From contig CANQVA010000006.1 in assembly GCA_947627175.1 (NCBI GenBank), forward strand, positions 1-64,000: DNA of 64,000 bases, read 5' to 3'. The notes beneath the pieces were generated by a model. That model did not search any database. It saw nothing but the letters and a program-made list of their open reading frames with translations, and was not told the DNA's origin. Made by a program: the position numbers and the translations under genes. Positions 28,882 to 41,737 of this stretch are shown in pieces. Position 1 is the stretch's first letter, and every line of letters begins with the position of its first letter. This stretch comes from an uncultured Ruminococcus sp. (lineage in GTDB: Bacteria > Bacillota > Clostridia > Oscillospirales > Ruminococcaceae).

Positions 28882-28906
28882 AAAAAAGCGGACATTTCTG
28901 CCCGCT
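28882..28906 (-). terminator. Terminator at the end of the peptide operon
   Basis: On the minus strand an AGCGG/CCGCT stem (28887-28906) is followed by a run of U just after the nucleotidyltransferase stop codon. Confidence 0.75.
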
Positions 28907-28916
28907 CGGTATAGAC

Positions 28917-30038
28917 TTATTCTTTACTTGAAAGAACCGTCTTTAATTCTATCATAATATTACGACGTGCTTTAAAAATAACACGTATCATTCTGTATAT
29001 ACACACAAAAGGTATAAGAATCCTGTGTTTATATGCAATCGGGCTATACTCACGATAAAATTCAGCATCAGGGAAAATTCTCTTAAATATATATTCATAT
29101 TTATTTCTTGCACCCATGTCTTTTTTCCTAATTCTGATTTTATTTTCAAATGTACCGTATGCACCGGCAAATAAATGTCTTTCAAGAAACTCTTTTTCTT
29201 TTTCCGTGAGATTAGGCTCAATAGTCGGCTTTGAAAATATTTTCCGTGCGACTTTCCTTGTCATGTGTTCATATCCGTTTATTCTCATTTTTTTAAGTTC
29301 ACATTCTATATACTCACGGTCAAGGTCAGGCTTTTTTTTCAGGTACAAATAGCAGTCAGCCAATGTACGCAGACCTGTACCGCCACTCATATGATGTTTT
29401 GCACCATGTGCCATCATGTATATATAAAAATCTTCATCTGTAAAATGATACCCATAATTATTATTTTCATCTTTTACAAGTCTTTTTTTAACGTCGTCAT
29501 AATAATTACTGAAACGGGAATGACGGGCATAAAAACGTGAAAAAAGTTCCACGTGCATTTCATAATTATAAACGGGCGGTTTCTGAAATGAATAATGATT
29601 AGCATTTTTTCCGCCCTCAACAGAATAGCCGTTTGAGAGCATATATTTTTTTAAAACTTCCAAATATCTGCGGTCAAAAAGAATATCATTATCAGACATT
29701 TCTCTCATACCTAACGAGGGATAAAATTCTTTAATAATAACACCCTTCATAGGCATATACCATATGCCTTTTTTTTCCATGAATGAAATTATTTTTTCAC
29801 GTTCAGCGTCAAGTAAAATAACTTTTCTTATTGCTTTTGCTTTACAGTCAATCCATTCTTTTGACAACTTTAATTTTGCTGACAAAAGTGCAGTGCATAC
29901 AGTTGCAGAAAGACAATGAAATTTTGACAATTTCAAAAGTGATTCAAGGTCAATATTTTCTAATATATCACGTTCCGGCACAATTCCGTTTATTGCACAT
30001 CCGGTAAGATACATCATATAGTATACAGTTTTCTTCAT
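28917..30038 (-). CDS. Nucleotidyltransferase-family protein of the peptide cluster
   Basis: A 373-residue protein resembling the NTP_transf_5 group that accompanies lasso-peptide and related peptide clusters. The core motif is visible as MPMKGVIIKEFYPSLGMREMSDNDILF near residues 95-122, where the Asp pair in SDNDIL would bind metal. A helical C-terminal half ends in a basic hydrophobic stretch (HRILIPFVCIYRMIRVIFKARR). It is the last gene of the operon, 12 bp after the exporter. Nucleotidylation of the peptide is inferred from the family, not shown. Confidence 0.85.
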   Translation of the reverse strand: MKKTVYYMMYLTGCAINGIVPERDILENIDLESLLKLSKFHCLSATVCTALLSAKLKLSKEWIDCKAKAIRKVILLDAEREKIISFMEKKGIWYMPMKGVIIKEFYPSLGMREMSDNDILFDRRYLEVLKKYMLSNGYSVEGGKNANHYSFQKPPVYNYEMHVELFSRFYARHSRFSNYYDDVKKRLVKDENNNYGYHFTDEDFYIYMMAHGAKHHMSGGTGLRTLADCYLYLKKKPDLDREYIECELKKMRINGYEHMTRKVARKIFSKPTIEPNLTEKEKEFLERHLFAGAYGTFENKIRIRKKDMGARNKYEYIFKRIFPDAEFYREYSPIAYKHRILIPFVCIYRMIRVIFKARRNIMIELKTVLSSKE

Positions 30039-30050
30039 TTTTTCTCCTTT

Positions 30051-31703
30051 TTATTCCTGCATAGCAATTATTTTATCGCATATTTCAAGTGCGGCAGGTC
30101 TGTGTGTAATTATAATAATAGTTTTGTCTGTCATACTTCTGATATTTTTCAGTAACTGTTGTTCTGTTGCAATATCGAGAGAACTTGTAGATTCATCAAG
30201 AATAAGTATCGGTGCATCTGAATAAACGGCACGTGCAACGGCTATTCTCTGCATCTGACCTTCAGACAATCCCGAACCTTTTTCGCCAAGCACATAATCA
30301 ACACCGCCGTCAAGACTTTTTACAAATTCACTTGCACAAGCTATATCAAGTGAACGCCACAACATATTTTCATCGCAATTTTCGTCTGAAATCGTCACAA
30401 CATCACGTATTGTACCGCACATAAGGCGATTACCTTGCGGAACATATGCAAAAAGTCTGTGCAATTTGCTTGTAAGCGGAATTTGACTGCCATCTTTACA
30501 TATAATAAAGCGTTCTCCTGAAGTAAGAGGATACAAACACATCATAAGTTTAAGCAGAGTTGACTTGCCACAGCCTGAATGACCTGTAAATGCAGTTGCT
30601 TTACCTTTTTCAATTGAAATATTTACATCATCAAGAACTTTTTCGCCGTCAGCATATGAAAAAGATGCGTTGCTGAATACTATTGATTCAAATTTATTAC
30701 TATAAAATTCTTTTACATCATCGTCTGAAAGTACTCCCTCGGGGCAATCGTCGGGGAAATTTTCAGCCTCCATAAGTCTTTCGGCACTTGCTATCATTGC
30801 ATAGAATTTCGGCAGATAGCCTGTAATATTTGCAAAAGGTGTCTGTATCTGTCCTATTAACTGCATTATAGCCATAAGCGTTCCATAGCTTACTGTCCCC
30901 GAAATTATGCCAAAACAAGAAAACCCGATTCCGAACAGATACATTCCGTTCATAGCAACACCAAAACCGACATTGCATAAATTTGAGAATGCATTTTTTT
31001 TCATGCGGGCTGATTTATGGGATTCCATTTTTTCACTGCATTTGTTTCCGCTTATTTTTTGTGCTGAAAATGTGCGTATTATCATAAGGTTTTCGAGGTG
31101 TTCCTGAAAAAATACCCTCAGACTGCTATCTGCCTCTTGTACTTTTTTATGCAGGCGTTTCAGAATTTTCCTGAAAGAAACGGTAAAAATTATCATCACT
31201 ATACCGCCGGGAATAATTATAAATGCAGTTTCAGGCACAAGTGTTATTATCATCAGAAGTGCAGCAACCATTTTTATAAACATTCCCAGAACACCCGGTA
31301 TTATTTCAACTGCACCATTCGCACATACAGCAGAATCAGAAGTAAGACGACTAAGCCATTCAGCGGAATGAAGTGCCGAAACATAGGCGTGTTCTTTTTC
31401 CATAAGACAAGAAAAAAGTCTGCCCTTACATTCATTTTCAATACCGCTCCTGCATCGTTCTTCAAGATGACGGAGGACGGCACGGAATGTTATTTGAAGT
31501 GCCGTAAGCAGAACAAGAAGAATAAGACTTATAATAAATTTTTTCCTGTTCTCATCTGCCGCATCATCAACGGCATTTCTGAGAAGAAGTGCAAATATAA
31601 CACTACTAAGTCCGAGTATTACCTGTATAAAGCCAAGTGCAGTAATTGCAATTTTATATTTTCCCGTGACTTTCCAAAGCCATTTTACCGCAGAATTTTT
31701 CAC
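30051..31703 (-). CDS. ABC exporter (ATPase fused to membrane domain)
   Basis: A 550-residue half-transporter of the ABCB/MsbA type. Six helices occupy about residues 1-310. The ATPase domain has Walker A FTGHSGCGKSTLLKLMM, signature GLSEGQMQRIAVARA, Walker B APILILDESTSSLD and the H-loop IIIITHRPAAL. It probably exports the modified peptide as a homodimer. No N-terminal C39 peptidase domain is present, so leader removal needs another protease. It overlaps the peptidase gene upstream by 4 bp. Confidence 0.93.
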   Translation of the reverse strand: MKNSAVKWLWKVTGKYKIAITALGFIQVILGLSSVIFALLLRNAVDDAADENRKKFIISLILLVLLTALQITFRAVLRHLEERCRSGIENECKGRLFSCLMEKEHAYVSALHSAEWLSRLTSDSAVCANGAVEIIPGVLGMFIKMVAALLMIITLVPETAFIIIPGGIVMIIFTVSFRKILKRLHKKVQEADSSLRVFFQEHLENLMIIRTFSAQKISGNKCSEKMESHKSARMKKNAFSNLCNVGFGVAMNGMYLFGIGFSCFGIISGTVSYGTLMAIMQLIGQIQTPFANITGYLPKFYAMIASAERLMEAENFPDDCPEGVLSDDDVKEFYSNKFESIVFSNASFSYADGEKVLDDVNISIEKGKATAFTGHSGCGKSTLLKLMMCLYPLTSGERFIICKDGSQIPLTSKLHRLFAYVPQGNRLMCGTIRDVVTISDENCDENMLWRSLDIACASEFVKSLDGGVDYVLGEKGSGLSEGQMQRIAVARAVYSDAPILILDESTSSLDIATEQQLLKNIRSMTDKTIIIITHRPAALEICDKIIAMQE

Positions 31704-32134
31704 CGTTTCAACCGCCTTTTCAGGAAAGAAACTCCCCTTGCAATAAATGCCCTTATCGGGAAAAAATCACACCATATATGCACATAAAGTTTATATCTCC
31801 AATCATTAACGGAAATAGTTTTTCCATTGCGGACAACAGCAGAAAGAACGCCTATAATATGGCGGTCTGTTATGCCGTATTCTTTTTGCCAGCGGTTATC
31901 CCCGCATATGACATAATCCTTTTCACGTACTTTTAATATACGGTGCAGGACATATTGACCTGAATCACGCTTATACAAAGGCACATCATATTTTTTCAGC
32001 CGTTTTTTTGGTTTACGGGTAATTATTATCAGGTCTTTTCCCTCACGTATAAGAGGCATCATGCTGTCGCCTTTATTTTTATATACAAGTTTACCCGACT
32101 TTTTAATTACTTCCTCAAAAGTTGATTTAATCAT
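31700..32134 (-). CDS. S24/S26-family serine peptidase-like protein
   Basis: About 144 residues. The catalytic serine region reads NKGDSMMPLIREGKDLI, typical of signal-peptidase-like S26 and LexA-like S24 enzymes. The later YVLHRILKV and VICGDNRWQKEYG are typical of the short variants in peptide gene clusters. The C-terminal part is basic and amphipathic with one hydrophobic stretch (VHIWCDFFPIRAFIA), suggesting membrane contact. It may remove the leader of the small peptides. It overlaps the PqqD-like gene and the exporter gene, so translation is tightly coupled. Confidence 0.85.
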   Translation of the reverse strand: MIKSTFEEVIKKSGKLVYKNKGDSMMPLIREGKDLIIITRKPKKRLKKYDVPLYKRDSGQYVLHRILKVREKDYVICGDNRWQKEYGITDRHIIGVLSAVVRNGKTISVNDWRYKLYVHIWCDFFPIRAFIARGVSFLKRRLKR

Positions 32135-32387
32135 CAATAGCACCGATATTTCTTAAAGTTTTTATAATTTTTTTAACATCAGCTGAAATAACATCTTTCG
32201 GAGCATCATATATTTTTGCCATTTTTTCGACTATCTGCTTTTCAGTTGTTTCTTTTTTCAGGCAGTCAACAATAAAAGCGGCGGTATCATTACTGCGTAC
32301 AATACCGCTGAATTGTTCATTTCCTGCGGCAACAAGAATCTGTTCACCGCCTGAACTATGTGTAATAAATCCGTCTTTAAGTTTCAT
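32127..32387 (-). CDS. PqqD-like peptide-recognition protein
   Basis: An 86-residue protein matching the PqqD family: ILVAAGNEQFSGIVRSNDTAAFIVDCLK, then ETTEKQIVEKMAKIYDAP and KTLRNIGAI. Such proteins (RiPP recognition elements, the B1 proteins of lasso clusters) bind the leader of a precursor peptide and present it to modifying enzymes. It lies between the HprK-like kinase (10 bp upstream) and the peptidase (overlapping). Its presence is the main reason to read this operon as a RiPP-like cluster. Confidence 0.9.
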   Translation of the reverse strand: MKLKDGFITHSSGGEQILVAAGNEQFSGIVRSNDTAAFIVDCLKKETTEKQIVEKMAKIYDAPKDVISADVKKIIKTLRNIGAIDD

Positions 32388-32396
32388 GTTTCAATT

Positions 32397-33134
32397 TTAT
32401 CCTTTCATAGCATTATATGACGTTTCAGCCGCTGAAATGTCCATATTACAGCCGAGTACATATAATGGCACATTATTCATAAGTTTTTCAATAAGAGTGA
32501 GAAGTTTTGCGGTTTTTTGGGCATTTGCGGGACGATATGACTGTTGGAGAATCAACGGATATACTGAAGAACGATTGCCGACTTTTTCTATGTGATTCTC
32601 CTTATCTCTTTTCAACACACATATTGCCTTCAAAGGTACGGCAATATTTTCGCCGAGACGGTGCTTTCCGTTCCACGGAGTGCCATAAGCTGTAACGCCT
32701 GTATCACTTATCATAAGTAAAGGTTTATCATCATTCACCATAACAGCACGTTCACCGAAATATTCCCTCCAAAGGCGTGTATGCGTTGATTTTCCTGTAC
32801 CGCTTTTAGCGGTGAACAGATAGCCCTCACCGTCTACCGCCACAACCGAACCATGAAAAAGAATTTTGTCATCTTCAATTATTTTTTCGGCTATTTTGCG
32901 GTAAACGGCGAGAGTTTCAAGATAGCTGTCACTGTAATTTATTACTTCGTGTCCCTCTTTTATATCCTGTGATGCTGAACGCATTCTTTCATATGTAATA
33001 TCATCTGCGGATATAGTCACTACAAAATCAGGTTTATCTGATGTTTCGTAACCTTTGCAAAGAGAATGCACGCCCTCAAACAGCGAACACACTTCAATAT
33101 TTGTGTCGGCAATCCTGTATGTTCTGCTTATCAT
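32397..33134 (-). CDS. HprK-like serine kinase of the peptide cluster
   Basis: A 245-residue protein with the HPr kinase/phosphorylase fold: Walker A FTAKSGTGKSTHTRLW near residues 107-122, then VMVNDDKPLLMI with the metal-binding acidic pair, and YGTPWNGKHRLGENI. Relatives in paeninodin-type lasso clusters phosphorylate a C-terminal serine of the precursor. Peptide 1 encoded immediately upstream ends in Ser. Its ATG overlaps the peptide 1 stop in an ATGA, the strongest sign that the two work together. It is not the carbon-catabolite HprK, which is longer. Confidence 0.88.
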   Translation of the reverse strand: MISRTYRIADTNIEVCSLFEGVHSLCKGYETSDKPDFVVTISADDITYERMRSASQDIKEGHEVINYSDSYLETLAVYRKIAEKIIEDDKILFHGSVVAVDGEGYLFTAKSGTGKSTHTRLWREYFGERAVMVNDDKPLLMISDTGVTAYGTPWNGKHRLGENIAVPLKAICVLKRDKENHIEKVGNRSSVYPLILQQSYRPANAQKTAKLLTLIEKLMNNVPLYVLGCNMDISAAETSYNAMKG

Positions 33135-33268
33135 GAACCAACAACTGGTGCGTCTATGTCAGGACTAACAGGATCAGGGTCAGTTGTAAAACCACCACTT
33201 GTTGTTATAACATCTTCACATTCAAATTTAATAACCTGCATTTTGGGCTTTTTGTAAGATTTCTTCAT
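33131..33268 (-). CDS. Candidate precursor peptide 1 (45 aa)
   Basis: A small gene behind GAGGAATTC. The peptide has a basic N-terminus with Y5-K-K-P-K-M, then VIKFECEDVITTSGG, then an acidic Pro/Asp/Thr core of about 19 residues (FTTDPDPVSPDIDAPVVGS) ending in Ser. The first 26 residues are almost the same as in peptide 2, while the core differs completely: the pattern of a conserved leader and variable core. The YxxP...T form recalls lasso-peptide leaders. It overlaps the kinase gene by 4 bp. The product and its modification are inferred. Confidence 0.85.
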   Translation of the reverse strand: MKKSYKKPKMQVIKFECEDVITTSGGFTTDPDPVSPDIDAPVVGS

Positions 33269-33297
33269 AATGAATTCCTCATTTCATTATAGTTTTA

Positions 33298-33726
33298 TTA
33301 TTCTACAGGGACAAACGGCAATTCAATATAGCTTTCTTCAGACTGATTTTCTTCAGCCTGCGGCATATCATTTGATTCACTTTCGGCAGATTCGGAATTT
33401 TCAGCATCTTCAATGACAAATTCAAATTCACCGTCGGGAATATCGCTGTTTTCCTCTGTAGTATCAGATTCTGTTGATGTTGTTGTAGTAGTAGTTTCAG
33501 CAGATTCTGTTGTTGTTTTTGATGTAGTTGTAGTTTCAGCAGTTGTTTCAGTTGTTTCAGTTGTTTCCGTCGTTTCTTCTGTTTGCGTTGTTTCTTCTGT
33601 CGTTACTTCAGCGACAAGAACCGCATCTTCCGACAATGAAATTTCATTGCTTTCATTCTTTCCGGAATTGCACGCACAAAGCAAAACCGCTGAACATAGC
33701 GTTAAAATAAATGGTATTTTCTTCAT
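33298..33726 (-). CDS. Thr/Glu-rich lipoprotein
   Basis: A 142-residue protein. A lipoprotein signal ends in VLLCAC, followed by a low-complexity stalk of Thr and Glu (repeats of TTETT) over about residues 40-95 and an acidic, Ser/Glu-rich tail. No folded domain is recognised. The start is the ATG after AAAGGA. It lies between the two small peptide genes and is probably a surface-anchored, possibly glycosylated, spacer protein. A role in peptide immunity or display is speculative. Confidence 0.8.
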   Translation of the reverse strand: MKKIPFILTLCSAVLLCACNSGKNESNEISLSEDAVLVAEVTTEETTQTEETTETTETTETTAETTTTSKTTTESAETTTTTTSTESDTTEENSDIPDGEFEFVIEDAENSESAESESNDMPQAEENQSEESYIELPFVPVE

Positions 33727-33743
33727 GACAAATCCTTTCATAT

Positions 33744-33787
33744 AAAAAAACATTGAAGGAAGCTACCCGTTTGGGTAGCTCCCTTTT
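33744..33787 (-). terminator. Attenuator-like hairpin between peptide 2 and the lipoprotein gene
   Basis: An 11-bp stem (33758-33768 with 33773-33783) contains one mismatch that becomes a G-U pair in minus-strand RNA. It is followed after 8 nt by a U-run. It may stop part of the transcripts after peptide 2, giving more peptide 2 than downstream proteins. Confidence 0.6.
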
Positions 33788-33796
33788 ATTTGATTA

Positions 33797-33937
33797 TCAG
33801 AATCCAAGTTCGTAGTCCGGTACTTCATCGCTTCCCGGGTTAGATATGTGATCCTCCACGCCACCGCTTGTTGTGATTACATCTTCGCAGTCGAATTTTA
33901 TTACGTCCATCTTAGGTCTTATATAAGCTTCTTTCAT
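33797..33937 (-). CDS. Candidate precursor peptide 2 (46 aa)
   Basis: A small gene behind AAAGGAATT, 25 bp after the giant transglutaminase-like gene. Residues 5-26 read YIRPKMDVIKFDC then EDVITTSGG, nearly identical in protein sequence to peptide 1 although codons differ. The remaining 20 residues (VEDHISNPGSDEVPDYELGF) share nothing with the peptide 1 core except acidity and prolines. The conserved part should be the PqqD-bound leader, with cleavage near the Gly-Gly. It could instead be an unmodified secreted peptide. Confidence 0.84.
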   Translation of the reverse strand: MKEAYIRPKMDVIKFDCEDVITTSGGVEDHISNPGSDEVPDYELGF

Positions 33938-33962: not shown

Positions 33963-36900
33963 CTATTTAATGCTCTGATAGCTTACTGCTGCCTGATTGT
34001 AGAGGTAGAGTGCCTTTACAAGGCTCTTTATGCTGCTGTTTGCATGAGAATTTGAAAGAACAGCATACGCATAGCTGAGAGGGCTTGCACTTATTGTGAA
34101 GTTACCCTTTCCACAATTCTGCGGTTTACTGAGATTCTGTGCAATGATATTTGGAATATCGCAGTAGTAAAGTCCGGGTTCTTTCTGAGTAAGTCCGAGG
34201 CTTGCTATAGCGTTTTCTTCTGTTACATCGAAGTAATGACGGAGAGTTGTTTCAGATTCGAGTATAAGGCTTGTGCTTCTGTATTTTACGCCGTCAGGAA
34301 GAGTTCCTGTTTTAGATGCCTGATAATTTGCAAGTGCTTCAGCTGTAACTGCTTTCATTGCTTTTGTTTCAGTAATATCTGTCTTTGCAAAGTATGCATT
34401 TGCAACTTCGCCGTATGTCTTGAGAGCTGTTGCGAGATTCTGCTCTTTAGCGTATTTCTCTGTTTCGTTGAGGATAGTTGTGAGGTAGTGTTCAACAGAA
34501 CAAGTGTTTTCTGTATCTACTACATCATTAACTTTAACTACAAGTTTAACGTCCTTATTGATGTCCTTTGCAGATACTTCGCAATGAATCTTGTATGTGT
34601 TAGGCATATCGTTGTTTTCATATTTGAGAGCTTCTGTGATGTCCTGTGTATCAGTCGATCCGTCAGGGAGAGTAATTATAGCCTTAGCACCTTCAACATC
34701 TTTAGCATCTTTGAACTCAACATAGAAGTTAAGACCGATATTTCCGCCGAGGGAGATGTTGTGACCAACTACAGCACTGAAACCGTCTTTGAATTTTGAG
34801 GTTGTTTCGTGAGGTTCAACTGTTTCGCCTTCATTCCTCTCTGCCTCTTTTGTTTTAACTGTTTCAGAAACGAACTGTACATCAATTACTGCACTATTTC
34901 CGTCAATCTTTTCAAGCTGTTCATAGTCAACTTGAATTTCTGCACTGTTTTTGTTATCATCTGTTATTTCATAAGATTTATCGCCAATCTTAACAGACTC
35001 AATGTCATAATTTGGGTCAGCTTCGATTTTGACAGTAGCTGTTTCGCCCTTGTTGAGGATTATTGTGCCAGATTTTTTTGGATCCTGCTGATTTGAAGAA
35101 ACTGTTCCGCCGATAGTCTTTGATGTGAAGACTACAGATTCCTGTGTGCGTGACTTATCAAATTCAGTTTTTTCAGTTCCCGAAAGAGTTAATTCTGCTG
35201 TTTCAACGTCAATCGGAACAACAGCGAACGGGCTGAATGCATCGCACCATACAACAAGACCGTATTCTGTGATTTCACAAGGAATTTCGTTTACGCCTGT
35301 GATGTTGCCTTTTTCGTCTTTAGAGAAGTGGTAAACTTTGAAAGTTTTGCCTTTGTCTTCCGGACCGTAGCCTGCCGGGAATCCGAGTGTTACACGAACT
35401 GCCTGACCTGTGCTTACAATCTGAGATTTACAGAGTGTGAGGTTGATGTTGTAGTATTCAGCATTATCAATTTCAGCTGCTTCTTTAAAACCGTTAAGAC
35501 CGCCCTCATTATTTGAAAGTAAATCGTCCATTTCCTGTTCCTGTTTTTCGTTTGCGTCTGTAGCAACGAGAACCATTCTGTGTGTAAGACCTTTGAGAGC
35601 CTCATTCAAATCATCAAATCCATCTGTCATATCGCTTGAATCGCCATTCATCTTGAATTTTTCATTATTGAAGTCAAAACTGCTGAGGTCATCCATAAGA
35701 GTAGGCTTGCCGAATACGTTCCAATCATAACCCTGTGACTGGAAAGCGTGCGCTGCACATCTGTGAGCTGCGAGGTAGCTTATAGCGATTGGCTCTTTGC
35801 CCTTTATTATTGTTGTCTTAACATCAACGCCGGGTTCGGGATAAGTTCCGTCTGATCTCATTTCCTGATATTCAAACTGTATATCATTTCCTCTTATGCC
35901 TTTAACGTCAAAATCATAGAAGATATTGTCATCAGCATACATTGTACTTGGTGTGAAGTCAAATTTGTAACCTATGATTGTTTCATCAGCGAGTGTGCTT
36001 GGGTCAATGCCGTCAAATGTTCTTGTGTATTCATCAAATTCCTGTAATATAACAGCATCACGAGTATATTCATCTGCTTTCTTATCAATAAATCTTACAT
36101 CACATGATACAGGTTCAGTTTCTTCACCGTTTGCAAGTATAAGTCTAAGATTTGTGAAAGCACTGTGTTCAAAACCTGATGTATTTGCAATGTCATACAT
36201 ATCCTGAATATCAACTCTGAGTGAAATTCTTCCATTATTCTCTGCAAGATATTCTTTATCAATGTGGAGATTCTGGTCAAATGTTGCACTTATTTCACGT
36301 GTACCGTCATCAATAAGAAGTGCACTTGTAAGTCCGGGAGAAACCTCTTTCGGATATGGAGGAGCTTTATACATTCCGTTTTTGTTAAAAACTGAATCAC
36401 TTGCTGCAATTAAATCTTCCTGTGTACCTCTGAAAGTATTGTCATACATTTTAGCGTGTGTCTTAGGGTCTTCATATGTTACCTTAGGTTCAAGTTTTGT
36501 TACAGCAAATTTTACATACGGTGTCTGTGGAAGTTTGATAACAAAGTAGTTTGGAGTATCATAGAAATCGATATTTTCTGCATCTCCCTCATTTTCAAAG
36601 AATGGAGGAGCCTGAACGCCTGTACCCATGAATACGTATCCTGTCCAAGCAAGGTCACCGATTCCTGCTTCTGCAACGAGCTGATCATAAGACTTATCGC
36701 CTTTGTCTGTGCTTCTGCTCTGGCTTGATACACCGCCTCTTTCAACAAAGCAGTCATACATGAAGTTGTAACCTGCTTCTTTTGCGGCATTGAATCCCAT
36801 TCCCTTATAGCTTACCTTGAAAACTCCACATTCTTCGCCTTCTTTCTGTGTACCCTCTTCAAATTCAACCATAAGACCGTTTGTATTGTAAACTACTTCA

Positions 36901-38324: not shown

Positions 38325-40373
38325 ATGGAAAACAATAAATATCTTGTCGCTCTTGCGGGAAATCCGAATGTCGGAAAATCAACGGTTTTCAATGCTCTTA
38401 CGGGTATGAATCAGCACACGGGAAACTGGGCAGGAAAAACTGTATCAAGTGCAGAGGGATATTTTGAATATAAGGATATGAAAATTACTCTTGCAGATAT
38501 TCCCGGCACATATTCTTTGCGTACAAACTCAGCAGAAGAAAACACTGCAAGTGATTTTATATGTTTTTCAGATGCAGATGCTGTTATTGTAGTATGTGAT
38601 GCAACGTGTCTTGAACGAAATTTAAATCTTGCTTTACAAGTCATTGAGGCTATGCCTAAAAGCATATTATGTGTAAATCTTCTTGATGAGGCAAAATCAA
38701 AGGGCATTGAAATAAATCTTGACCTTTTAAAAGAATTGCTCGGTGTAAACGTTGTTGGTGTAACAGCACGGAGCGGAAAAGGTCTTGATGAACTTCTTGA
38801 ATGTCTTTACAACTGCATAAATAATGATTCAGATATAACACCGCATTCTGTTTTACTTCCTGAAACAATAGAAAAAGCTGTTTCCGAAACTTGCAAAATT
38901 ATTGAAAATAATATACATAAACTTCCCGCACGTCTTACGGCTATGCGTATTATTGAGGGCGATACGGATTTTGTCAGAAAAGCCGAACAATACGAAAACA
39001 CGGATATTTTTAACAGTCCTGAAATTGAAAAAATAAAGTCCGATTTACATAATGACGGATTTACAGAGGAAAAAATCACTGATGAAATTATTTCTGCTGT
39101 TATCGGAAAATCCGCTGAAATAGCCGAAAAAACTGTAAATTATAACAAATCATCTCCATATGTACGTGACAGAAAACTTGACAGAATTTTTTTAAGCAAA
39201 CGTTTCGGAATACCTATAATGATTCTTTTACTCGGGCTGATTCTATGGATTACAATTATAGGTGCAAATTATCCGTCTGACCTCCTCGGAAAAATTCTTT
39301 TCGGGTTTGGTGATGTTCTTTCCGACGGTCTGCATGAAATTCACGCTCCGCAATGGCTTGAGGGCGTACTTATTCAAGGAATTTACCGTGTGCTTGCATG
39401 GGTTGTTTCCGTGATGCTTCCGCCTATGGCTATATTTTTCCCTATGTTTACACTTCTTGAAGATTTCGGATACCTTCCACGGATAGCTTTTAATCTTGAC
39501 CACGGTTTCAGGTGTGCCAATGCCTGCGGAAAACAAGCTATAACTATGGCTATGGGGTTTGGCTGTAACGCCTGTGGAGTCACGGGCTGTAGGATTATTG
39601 ATTCTCCCCGTGAAAAACTTATTGCAATACTCACAAATAATTTTGTCCCATGCAACGGACGTTTTCCGACTATCATAATGATAATTACAATGTTCTTTGT
39701 AACATCAGGTAGTATAATGTCTGCTGTTGTTCTGCTTGGCGTAATTATTCTTGGAGTTTTAATGACGCTCATCATGTCAAAATTTTTGTCATGTACTATA
39801 TTGAAAGGCGTTACTTCGTCATTTACTCTTGAACTTCCCCCTTACCGCCGCCCGCAGTTCACAAAGGTTCTTATACGTTCAATTTTTGACAGAACTATTT
39901 TTGTGCTTGCAAGAGCCTGCACTGCTGCTGCACCGTGTGGTCTGCTGATATGGATTGTTGCAAATGTCAAAATTGGAGAAAATACACTACTTTCAATAAC
40001 GGCGGATTTCCTTGACCCTTTTGCCTCACTCATGGGTCTTGACGGTGTTATACTTCTTGCATTTATACTCGGATTCCCTGCAAATGAAATTGTTTTCCCG
40101 ATAATACTTATGACATATCTTGCACAAGGCAGTCTGACTGAAATATCAGACACTATTCAAATTCATTCCCTGCTTACGGAAAACGGCTGGAATATAACTA
40201 CAGCTTTATGTATGATGATTTTTACATTGTTTCATTTTCCGTGTGCAACAACCTGCATGACCATAAAAAAAGAAACGGGCAGTATAAAATGGACTGCATT
40301 AAGCTTTGCACTTCCTACAATAACCGGAATTATTATATGTATGATTATAAATGCAATAAGCATTATAATATGA
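38325..40373 (+). CDS. feoB: Ferrous iron transporter B
   Basis: A 682-residue GTP-gated Fe2+ permease of the cytoplasmic membrane. The N-terminal G domain has G1 AGNPNVGKSTVFNALTG, G3 DIPGTYSL and G4 VNLLDE. A helical GDI-like spacer (about 165-270) and the polytopic channel with GCNACGVTGCRI (Gate motif) and LPPYRRP follow. feoA is not adjacent, which is common in Clostridia but leaves the partner unidentified. ACGGAGGTG precedes the ATG. It has a terminator downstream. Confidence 0.96.
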   Translation: MENNKYLVALAGNPNVGKSTVFNALTGMNQHTGNWAGKTVSSAEGYFEYKDMKITLADIPGTYSLRTNSAEENTASDFICFSDADAVIVVCDATCLERNLNLALQVIEAMPKSILCVNLLDEAKSKGIEINLDLLKELLGVNVVGVTARSGKGLDELLECLYNCINNDSDITPHSVLLPETIEKAVSETCKIIENNIHKLPARLTAMRIIEGDTDFVRKAEQYENTDIFNSPEIEKIKSDLHNDGFTEEKITDEIISAVIGKSAEIAEKTVNYNKSSPYVRDRKLDRIFLSKRFGIPIMILLLGLILWITIIGANYPSDLLGKILFGFGDVLSDGLHEIHAPQWLEGVLIQGIYRVLAWVVSVMLPPMAIFFPMFTLLEDFGYLPRIAFNLDHGFRCANACGKQAITMAMGFGCNACGVTGCRIIDSPREKLIAILTNNFVPCNGRFPTIIMIITMFFVTSGSIMSAVVLLGVIILGVLMTLIMSKFLSCTILKGVTSSFTLELPPYRRPQFTKVLIRSIFDRTIFVLARACTAAAPCGLLIWIVANVKIGENTLLSITADFLDPFASLMGLDGVILLAFILGFPANEIVFPIILMTYLAQGSLTEISDTIQIHSLLTENGWNITTALCMMIFTLFHFPCATTCMTIKKETGSIKWTALSFALPTITGIIICMIINAISIII

Positions 40374-40446: not shown

Positions 40447-41031
40447 TCAGACGTTTCCGCCGTATGAACGGACAATAGCTTCAAGTCCGCCCTGATAACC
40501 TGCTGCTACAGCATTGAATTTCCATTCACCGTTCCTATAATAAAATTCAGCTACTACAAGTGCAGTTTCAATTGAAAATTCTTCTTCAAGGTCAAATTCA
40601 AGTACAGTTTCACCTACTGTATCAAATTCATCTTTAATTTTTGCAACCCTTATATAAGCATTTGAAACTTGTCCGAAATTCTGCTTTCTTACATTAGCCT
40701 CATAAATGGTTACACATATAGCTATCTTTTTGATTTCGGGCGGAATCTTTGTGAAGTCAATCAGAATAACTTCGTCATCGCCTTCGCCGTCACCTGTAAG
40801 ATTATCGCCTGTATGAATTACAGCACCGTCTCTTCCGTTGAGATTGTTGTAAAAAACAAAATCCTCATCTCTTATAAGTTTTCCGTTTTCTCCGAGAAGA
40901 AAAGCAGAGGCATCAAGGTCAAAATCATAACCCCCGTCATAACGGTTTGTATCCCAACCAAGACCCACAAGAGCAAGTTTCATTGAATCGTCAAGTGCGA
41001 CACGCTGACCTTTCTGTAAATTGATTGCCAT
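40447..41031 (-). CDS. TerD-family calcium-binding stress protein (copy 2)
   Basis: A 194-residue TerD-domain protein. It begins MAINLQKGQRVAL and contains the paired Ca2+ site sequences DFDLDASAFLL and HTGDNLTGDGEGDDEVILIDF. It ends with the typical EFYYRNGEWKFNAVAAGYQGGLEAIVRSYG. The start is the ATG after AAGGAGGAA, 35 codons inside the longest frame. It follows the other TerD gene by about 90 bp. TerD proteins bind Ca2+ and belong to tellurite/chemical stress systems whose mechanism is unsettled. Confidence 0.93.
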   Translation of the reverse strand: MAINLQKGQRVALDDSMKLALVGLGWDTNRYDGGYDFDLDASAFLLGENGKLIRDEDFVFYNNLNGRDGAVIHTGDNLTGDGEGDDEVILIDFTKIPPEIKKIAICVTIYEANVRKQNFGQVSNAYIRVAKIKDEFDTVGETVLEFDLEEEFSIETALVVAEFYYRNGEWKFNAVAAGYQGGLEAIVRSYGGNV

Positions 41032-41119
41032 AATAATTTTCCTCCTTTTTTTAATAAACTGCGGAGAAACTTTTTCACATATAAAAATCAAAGTGAAAAT
41101 CCCTCCGCAGATTTCAATA

Positions 41120-41737
41120 TTATTTGTAAATTGCAACTAATGCGTCAAGCCTGCTGGCTTCTTGTACAGGTTGTCCGACAGCGTTGAATTTCCATTCACT
41201 GCCTCTGCGGTATATTTCCCCTACTACAAGACCCGTCATGTTGTTATAATTTTCTGAAAGATTGAAACGGCAGATTTCCTGGTTGTTTTCCATGTTTACA
41301 AGTCTGATGAAAGCGTTTTCAATAAGACCGAAATGCTGTCCCCTTGTACGTGCATCATAAATATTTACAACGAATACTATCTTTCCTACTTCTGACGGCA
41401 AACGGCTTATATCAACCATAATCTGCTCATCGTCGCCATCTCCTGCACCTGTAAGGTTATCACCCTGATGAATAATTGCACCGCTGGGGTGTTTGAGATT
41501 TCCATAATAAACAACACTCTGCTTTATATCATTGCTGATAACTTTTCCGTTGTTGCCACAGATTATAACGGAAGCATCACAGTCAATGTCCTGCGGTTGT
41601 TGTTTGAATAATCCGAGGAAACCGCCGCCGTTATTGACCTTTTTTACTTCGTCCCAGCCAAGACCGACCATTACTTTTCTAAGACCGCCGCCTTTTGTAA
41701 GGTCAATTTTCTGTCCTTTCTGAAGATTTATACTCAT
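41120..41737 (-). CDS. TerD-family calcium-binding stress protein (copy 1)
   Basis: A 205-residue paralogue of its downstream neighbour, with INLQKGQKIDLTKGG, the glycine-rich insertion KKVNNGGGFLGLFKQQPQDIDCDAS, and the Ca2+ region HQGDNLTGAGDGDDEQIMVD. The insertion resembles the TerD/TerZ variants. AAAGGAGGAA precedes the start. It lies 16 bp downstream of a Ca2+ ATPase, suggesting a shared calcium or metal stress function. No TerC was found in the window. Confidence 0.93.
   Translation of the reverse strand: MSINLQKGQKIDLTKGGGLRKVMVGLGWDEVKKVNNGGGFLGLFKQQPQDIDCDASVIICGNNGKVISNDIKQSVVYYGNLKHPSGAIIHQGDNLTGAGDGDDEQIMVDISRLPSEVGKIVFVVNIYDARTRGQHFGLIENAFIRLVNMENNQEICRFNLSENYNNMTGLVVGEIYRRGSEWKFNAVGQPVQEASRLDALVAIYK

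Follow-up and report, generated by a model that had tools for sequence, protein, structure and literature searches.

The window analysed here, a stretch of 64,000 nucleotides from an uncultured Ruminococcus sp., carries on its minus strand a row of genes that runs, from right to left, from an exported-looking protein through peptide B, a lipoprotein-like protein and peptide A to a kinase, an RRE, a signal-peptidase-like protein, an ABC exporter and, at the end, an NTP_transf_5 protein. The features are listed below, with the Lpp names in brackets taken from the lpp cluster of Paenibacillus alginolyticus, described for linear polyphosphorylated peptides (LPPs) in the main text of Popov et al. 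(May 2026, PMC13381572):

33963..37946, minus strand: exported-looking protein of 1327 aa with a transglutaminase-like core (PF01841, 3e-8) and a signal-like N-terminus
33966..34781, minus strand: C-terminal domain (CTD) of the 1327-aa protein, matched by no Pfam or NCBIfam family
33797..33937, minus strand: putative precursor peptide B (46 aa), which follows the gene of the exported-looking protein at a distance of 25 nt
33756..33785, minus strand: terminator-like hairpin of 13 pairs directly behind precursor B (pattern match)
33298..33753, minus strand: Thr/Glu-rich stalked lipoprotein-like protein with the end IELPFVPVE
33131..33268, minus strand: putative precursor peptide A, 45 aa, with a YxxP leader running to TTS and a variable tail
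32397..33134, minus strand: HprK-like kinase (LppK-like) with the Walker A motif GTGKST; weak family scores under the curated cut-offs
32127..32387, minus strand: discrete RRE of the PqqD family (LppB-like), PF05402 1.3e-13
31700..32143, minus strand: SipW/archaeal-type signal-peptidase-like protein (LppS-like), sigpep_I_arch 2.5e-7 and SipW 2.6e-5, both below their cut-offs
30051..31703, minus strand: ABC exporter (LppD-like), ABC_membrane and ABC_tran (Pfam)
28917..30038, minus strand: NTP_transf_5 nucleotidyltransferase-like protein (LppN-like), PF14907 1.8e-37
28886..28907, minus strand: terminator-like hairpin behind the NTP_transf_5 gene (pattern match)

The two small genes had been proposed in an earlier, sequence-only reading of this DNA, which gave no strand. 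Both are present, on the minus strand and with the lengths above counted without the stop codon, and the good ribosome-binding sites that it had described are AGGA-type sites before each of them. The near-identical leader was also recovered, as 20 of the first 26 residues are the same in A and B, and 12 of these 20 use different codons, in line with the remark that the protein motif was kept while the codons changed; over the 26 residues, the nucleotide differences at codon positions 1, 2 and 3 are 3, 2 and 15. In local BLOSUM62 scoring, the leaders reach 110 and the tails 14. Considering that, of the other 52,649 pairs that can be formed from the window's ORFs of 30-60 aa, four also score at least 99 (165, 161, 139 and 99), the score of the pair alone is no proof, which comes instead from the homologues. 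The same reading would have been refuted by a lack of homologous small ORFs in relatives, but these were found: a profile of the pair matched 39 of 99 genomes, the window's own included, and a leader-only profile matched 43 of the 99. The genome to which the window belongs (2.6 Mb, 98.7% complete) yielded no precursor copies other than A and B. The first 4 nt of the kinase gene also belong to the ORF of precursor A. As terminator-like hairpins stand after B and after the last gene of the row, B can probably be grouped with the exported-protein gene, and A with the operon of the lipoprotein and the enzymes.

We also characterized the enzymes of the cluster. The kinase scores weakly and under the cut-offs of its families (Pfam 0.019, ScmC 6.2e-5, hpr-ser 0.0012), gave no match in a profile search of the PDB and yielded a structure model of very low confidence (pLDDT 31). 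Its GxGKST motif is invariant in 10 of 10 sequences, and the kinase of L036, the closest match with a name and a MAG labelled as an uncultured Ruminococcus sp. (Clostridia), is 92% identical to it. The RRE passes the Pfam cut-off (PF05402, 51.5 vs 23.4 bits); lasso-type PqqD models are its best NCBIfam match, below cut-off, and the lasso RRE TfuB1 is its nearest solved chain in the PDB profile search (E 3.1e-4). One PqqD-family protein was found in the genome. In the signal-peptidase-like protein, whose true start may be the ATG at 32134, Ser27, His67 and Asp82 (the Asp of GDN, with a putative catalytic role) are invariant in 9 of 9 sequences, and the PDB profile search returned no solved relative and one unrelated weak match. 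The ABC exporter matches MsbA_lipidA (4.8e-62, under its cut-off), and the Pfam scan detected no peptidase C39 domain on it. A role in anti-phage defence was rejected, as the four cluster proteins compared with PADLOC matched 0 families. Adjoining the cluster and divergent from it lies, at 38325-40373 of the window on the plus strand, what we take to be a FeoB-like ferrous iron transporter; farther on, two adjacent minus-strand proteins at 40447-41136 and 41120-41737 presumably are stress proteins of the TerD type.

The leader family and its enzymes across genomes

To describe the family, 87 precursors were extracted, 50 of them from 42 loci (the window, L036 and 40 genus-level loci) and 37 from 40 loci of other families, the latter not being a random sample, since 34 were picked for leader matches (including four many-copy genomes) and 6 for the kinase. 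Results showed a family leader of the form Y-x-x-P ... E-D-[VI]-I-T-x-S. The Asp, Thr and Ser of DxxTxS are each present in 87 of 87 precursors, a count that is not independent because the search profile contains these columns, and Y..P is found in 79 of the 87. In 14 more divergent peptides, located behind genes with the CTD, the Ser is conserved in 14 and the Thr in 13, the strict Y..P in one and the relaxed form [YF]..[PA] in 10. The tails are 6-44 residues long (median 17), 84 of the 87 are distinct, and all 87 together contain three Cys. In four genomes of other families, G111, G112 and G141 (L096-L106, L108-L112) and G280 (L088-L095), we observed 11 to 21 leader matches each; the precursors extracted from them have upstream proteins with other C-terminal domains and longer tails, which are mutually alike within G111, G112 and G141.

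The proposal of a conserved leader followed by a variable core was borne out in part. The tails of A and B are unrelated, but the Gly-Gly that had been taken as the boundary is present in 8 of 87 relatives, and the conserved part ends at T-T-S. Bacteriocins with double-glycine leaders are small exported peptides, and the Gly-Gly of both window copies recalls them. As Gly-Gly is no leader boundary in this family, and as no C39 domain was detected on the exporter, the locus does not have the appearance of a double-glycine system, and this assignment was rejected.

The leader and the kinase tend to be found in the same genomes. Among the 99 genomes, 38 matched both profiles, 5 the leader only, 2 the kinase only and 54 neither, which gives 40 genomes with the kinase and a Fisher value of 1.8e-19 with kinship ignored; in the genus alone, the corresponding numbers are 30, 5, 1 and 24. 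The five genomes with a leader and no detected kinase have a completeness of 66, 73, 90, 91 and 99%. In the 30 genus genomes with both, there are 114 leaders and 35 kinases, and a single genome of the genus can hold up to 14 precursors. Of the 114 leaders, 22 are within 10 kb of a kinase, 10 are farther away on the same contig and 82 are on another contig, distances that fragmented assemblies overstate. Judging from these gene positions, a single set of enzymes seems to act on numerous precursors at dispersed sites. In a class sample of 393 genomes, leaders were found in 39, and the kinase was detected in 37 of these (E <=1e-20). No leader match was obtained in 55 of the 92 kinase genomes of this sample, which means that their leaders are too divergent for the profile to detect, or else that their kinases act on other substrates.

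The suggestion that the small genes are precursors of ribosomally made, modified peptides (RiPPs) beside PqqD/HprK-like genes is supported by the order of the cluster, which is lppA-K-B-S-D-N as in the main text on LPPs (PMC13381572), and by the homologous leaders; with this gene order, the class is one that was already known. We consider A and B likely, and with good support, to be LPP-type precursors of a clostridial branch. A different possibility is that the small ORFs are translated and never modified, and that they have an intracellular role, such as regulation of the RRE and kinase or of the translation of the upstream gene. The deletion of lppN, which according to the main text had no effect in the published system (PMC13381572), would fit such a role, but the invariant Ser and Thr, the RRE-binding motif, the co-occurrence with the kinase and the presence of an exporter and a peptidase in the cluster all speak against it, and we regard it as improbable.

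Exported proteins in front of the precursors

We also looked at the genes that precede the precursors. A same-strand upstream ORF of at least 120 aa ends within 400 nt in 83 of the 87 cases, and in 75 of the 87 the distance from the preceding ORF to the precursor is -20 to 60 nt. Of these 75 preceding ORFs, 70 are not truncated at a contig end, and a simple rule of hydrophobicity assigns a signal-like N-terminus to 62 of the 70. When all ORFs of at least 200 aa from these loci were judged by one rule, such N-termini were assigned to 62 of 74 upstream genes vs 125 of 319 others (p 1.4e-12). This link to exported proteins applies to most of the extracted precursors, both within the genus and among those from other families of the class; at L040, a kinase and no exported protein precedes one precursor. 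Of 14 upstream proteins that were scanned, some contained BspA-type LRR, NEAT, Big_2, pectinesterase and GDSL, or DPBB domains, and 5 had no Pfam match at 0.001.

Many of the upstream proteins of the genus have in common a CTD of about 270 aa, and other upstream C-terminal domains also exist. Among 60 relatives, the CTD was found in 18 genomes, all 18 with leaders, and a leader lay within 220 nt downstream of 32 of 47 CTD matches, the profile having been built from peptide-paired proteins. The relation was then read outwards in other families. In the class sample, 53 of the 66 CTD rows outside genomes G000 and G077 were typed and 13 were dropped, mostly second fragments of one frame. Of the typed rows, 47 had no leader match, and 26 of the corresponding regions were retrieved. 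After removal of 3 regions in which the CTD sits within a longer frame, 23 genes from 10 genomes remained, all selected only by their CTD and with no leader match on record. At an HMM score of at least 3, a leader-like small ORF follows 14 of these 23 CTD-ending genes vs 0 of 306 control genes; L139, leader-like by eye and below the threshold, was counted as a miss. Six more CTD genes of the class sample were paired by genome scan, so that 20 of the 29 examined have a peptide gene and 9 have none at the threshold. Of the unmatched CTD rows at genus level, 14 of 15 were fetched: two have a leader-like ORF, two a stalked lipoprotein, and the rest neither or an internal domain. The idea that the CTD might be a widespread, peptide-independent domain fails in the 60 relatives and partly holds in the class sample, where leader matches were lacking in 6 of 17 genomes with the CTD; among those six, G208 and G277 have unlisted peptide genes, and in G362 the domain forms part of longer frames.

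An AlphaFold2 model of the CTD, made from two sequences, had a pLDDT of 69.9 and a pTM of 0.65. Foldseek searches of the PDB with this model returned nothing at E <=0.001, with loose Ig-like matches only, and a CTD profile gave weak matches to cellulosome proteins in the PDB, the best at 0.018.

These observations bring in a reading that we hold tentatively, according to which each mature peptide would have a partner of its own in the exported protein whose gene lies upstream, and would bind the CTD of that protein through its variable core. The close spacing of precursors behind signal-like ORFs argues for it, as do the leaders of all CTD genomes among the 60 relatives and the ability of the CTD to predict a peptide gene in other families. 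Against it stand the other C-terminal domains on upstream proteins, the CTD genes for which no peptide was detected and the kinase upstream at L040.

The cores were examined in the same light. In the genus, similarity between tails from different genomes tracks the likeness of the upstream C-terminal domains (0 of 1000 permutations as large), more than similarity between leaders does (30 of 1000), as a partnership would lead one to expect. Across all families, tails and leaders both track the type of upstream domain (0 of 1000 each), which weakens the argument, and gene pairs that duplicate together would produce a tail-domain correlation as well; common descent of the gene pairs explains part of it. 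The motif E[LTM][PEQSKG], picked after inspection, is found in 20 of 33 CTD-paired tails vs 4.0 expected from shuffling, which again favours a partner role.

A further link comes from the stalked lipoproteins. We found 13 distinct lipoprotein-like proteins with a Thr/Ser/Glu-rich stalk and an [IV][ED]LPxx-like end, a motif of a kind that the search itself required, and their ELPxxP-like end is also seen in some peptide cores. At L057 (6500-7161, plus strand), the lipoprotein and the precursor behind it share their last ten residues, PIELPLVPLR; the peptide core of L057 looks as if copied from the tail of the lipoprotein. At L073 (6012-6425, minus strand), a lipoprotein with a Thr-rich stalk ends in the whole leader motif and a core, and looks like a naturally arisen fusion. 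At L153 (641-1060, minus strand) and L155 (832-1260, plus strand), a stalked lipoprotein lies behind a CTD gene, with gaps of 51 and 54 nt, in the slot where the precursor is expected. The shared ends of L057 and the replacement at L153 and L155 are what a partner role would predict, but a clear ELPxxP is absent from both tails of the window. In a fuller form of the partner reading, to which we give the same tentative weight, the phosphate or a sugar on the Ser would link the peptide to the envelope, and the stalked lipoprotein would be a membrane-bound version of the core. A broader and slightly more doubtful proposal is a dispersed clostridial system of surface display, in which one machine would supply many genes with peptide tags bearing phosphate or sugar that dock to the CTD of the upstream protein, the stalked lipoprotein presenting the same docking motif on the membrane.

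Secreted signals and antimicrobials are the usual role of RiPPs. The peptides might equally be free secreted products of this kind, sharing operons with exported proteins since both are needed under the same conditions, and the exporter in the cluster and the high variability of the cores agree with this. By itself, such a role predicts neither the adjacency of CTD and peptide genes across families nor the ends shared with lipoproteins. It is a reading that we also hold only tentatively, about as likely as the partner role, and both are nested in the LPP explanation.

The role of LPPs is given as unknown in the main text of PMC13381572, the one paper naming LPPs that we found, and the link to exported proteins offers a testable clue to their function. 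If it is true, LPPs, so far presumed to be natural products, would have to be seen more as components of the cell-surface machinery, and their role would be open to tests of binding and localisation, the unclassified CTD being a likely counterpart.

Proposed maturation and known peptide classes

Within the LPP explanation, the gene set points to linear phosphopeptides, and we infer the phosphorylation, the cleavage and the partnership with exported proteins from homology and gene context. Homology to the Paenibacillus system, which has been tested, suggests that the PqqD-like RRE would bind the YxxP leader and that the HprK-like kinase would phosphorylate the invariant Ser of T-x-S. Signal peptidases follow a -3/-1 logic; considering this, the SipW-like peptidase would remove the leader most likely after the invariant Thr, with a hydrophobic residue at -3 and Thr at -1. 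The acidic, Cys-free core of about 23 residues would be exported by the ABC exporter, and the NTP_transf_5 protein may decorate the phosphate further. A single enzyme set would act on precursors encoded at scattered sites of the genome, for the most part immediately after the gene of an exported protein. In the published system, the main text reports that LppK adds several phosphates to Ser3 and that LppS, aided by the RRE LppB, cleaves after Thr-1 (PMC13381572). Here, a cut after the Thr would leave the Ser at position 2, and a cut one residue earlier would place it at position 3 as published. As for the NTP_transf_5 protein, a parallel is found in pseudomycoidin, for which PsmN, annotated as a nucleotidyltransferase, is needed for the hexose on the phosphorylated Ser (PMC9266682, in the sections drawn on here).

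The paeninodin-type lasso peptides, in the parts of PMC13381572 and PMC9266682 drawn on here, resemble the cluster in having an HprK-like kinase, an NTP_transf_5-like protein, a PqqD-type RRE and an ABC exporter. The window peptides could be lasso peptides if the cyclase and the B2 protease were encoded elsewhere in the genome, and the YxxP leader, the lasso-type PqqD models as best NCBIfam match of the RRE and the Thr at -2 before Gly in both window peptides would agree with that, as would the Asn_synthase homologues of the genome, 5 matches with none on the window's contig. The nine ORFs scanned in the cluster region contained no Asn_synthase cyclase, though, and the B2 protease PF13471 had 0 matches in the window's genome and was over the cut-off in only 6 of 99 relatives, the peptidase slot of the cluster being taken by the SipW-like protein. 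In addition, the leader has Tyr where that of the paeninodin type has Trp, and a lasso-like Gly after TxS with Asp/Glu at positions 7-9, counted from that Gly, was found in only 17 of 87 tails, A having it and B not. With no B2 protease and no local cyclase, membership among the lasso peptides was rejected, and we judge it highly improbable. Genes for an HPr kinase, PqqD and a nucleotidyltransferase have also been predicted in rumen genomes, Ruminococcus included; in the part of that report drawn on here (PMC7533575) they are filed as lasso peptides, and neither a signal peptidase nor a pairing with exported proteins is named.

The LPPs remain the closest known system. According to the main text, the authors name the family by its gene set and its linear phosphorylated product, and their consensus describes the precursors that they found (PMC13381572). 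The window shares with it the gene set and the order A-K-B-S-D-N, the discrete RRE, a candidate SipW-like peptidase, a cluster without cyclase, and a YxxP leader ending in Thr that is followed by a conserved Ser in front of a variable core. The published consensus YxxPxVLxHQxIxFETxxS (PMC13381572, main text) does not describe the window family in full: Y, P, the final Thr and the Ser agree, whereas HQ, FET and the spacing differ, the family having TxS where TxxS was published, along with other inner leader residues. With T and S one residue closer, the positions of cut and phosphorylation may differ from those published. The main text of PMC13381572, in a search covering that text, gave no match for Ruminococc, Clostridi, Lachnospir or surface, and in our searches of the open-licence PMC literature, preprints aside, we found no report that pairs LPP precursors with exported proteins. 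Unlike the published arrangement, as its main text presents it, many precursors are here encoded in trans, most of them behind an exported-protein gene, and a stalked lipoprotein belongs to the cluster. Dispersed precursors coupled to exported proteins are a variant of the LPP kind that is new relative to what these searches of the open-licence PMC literature found.
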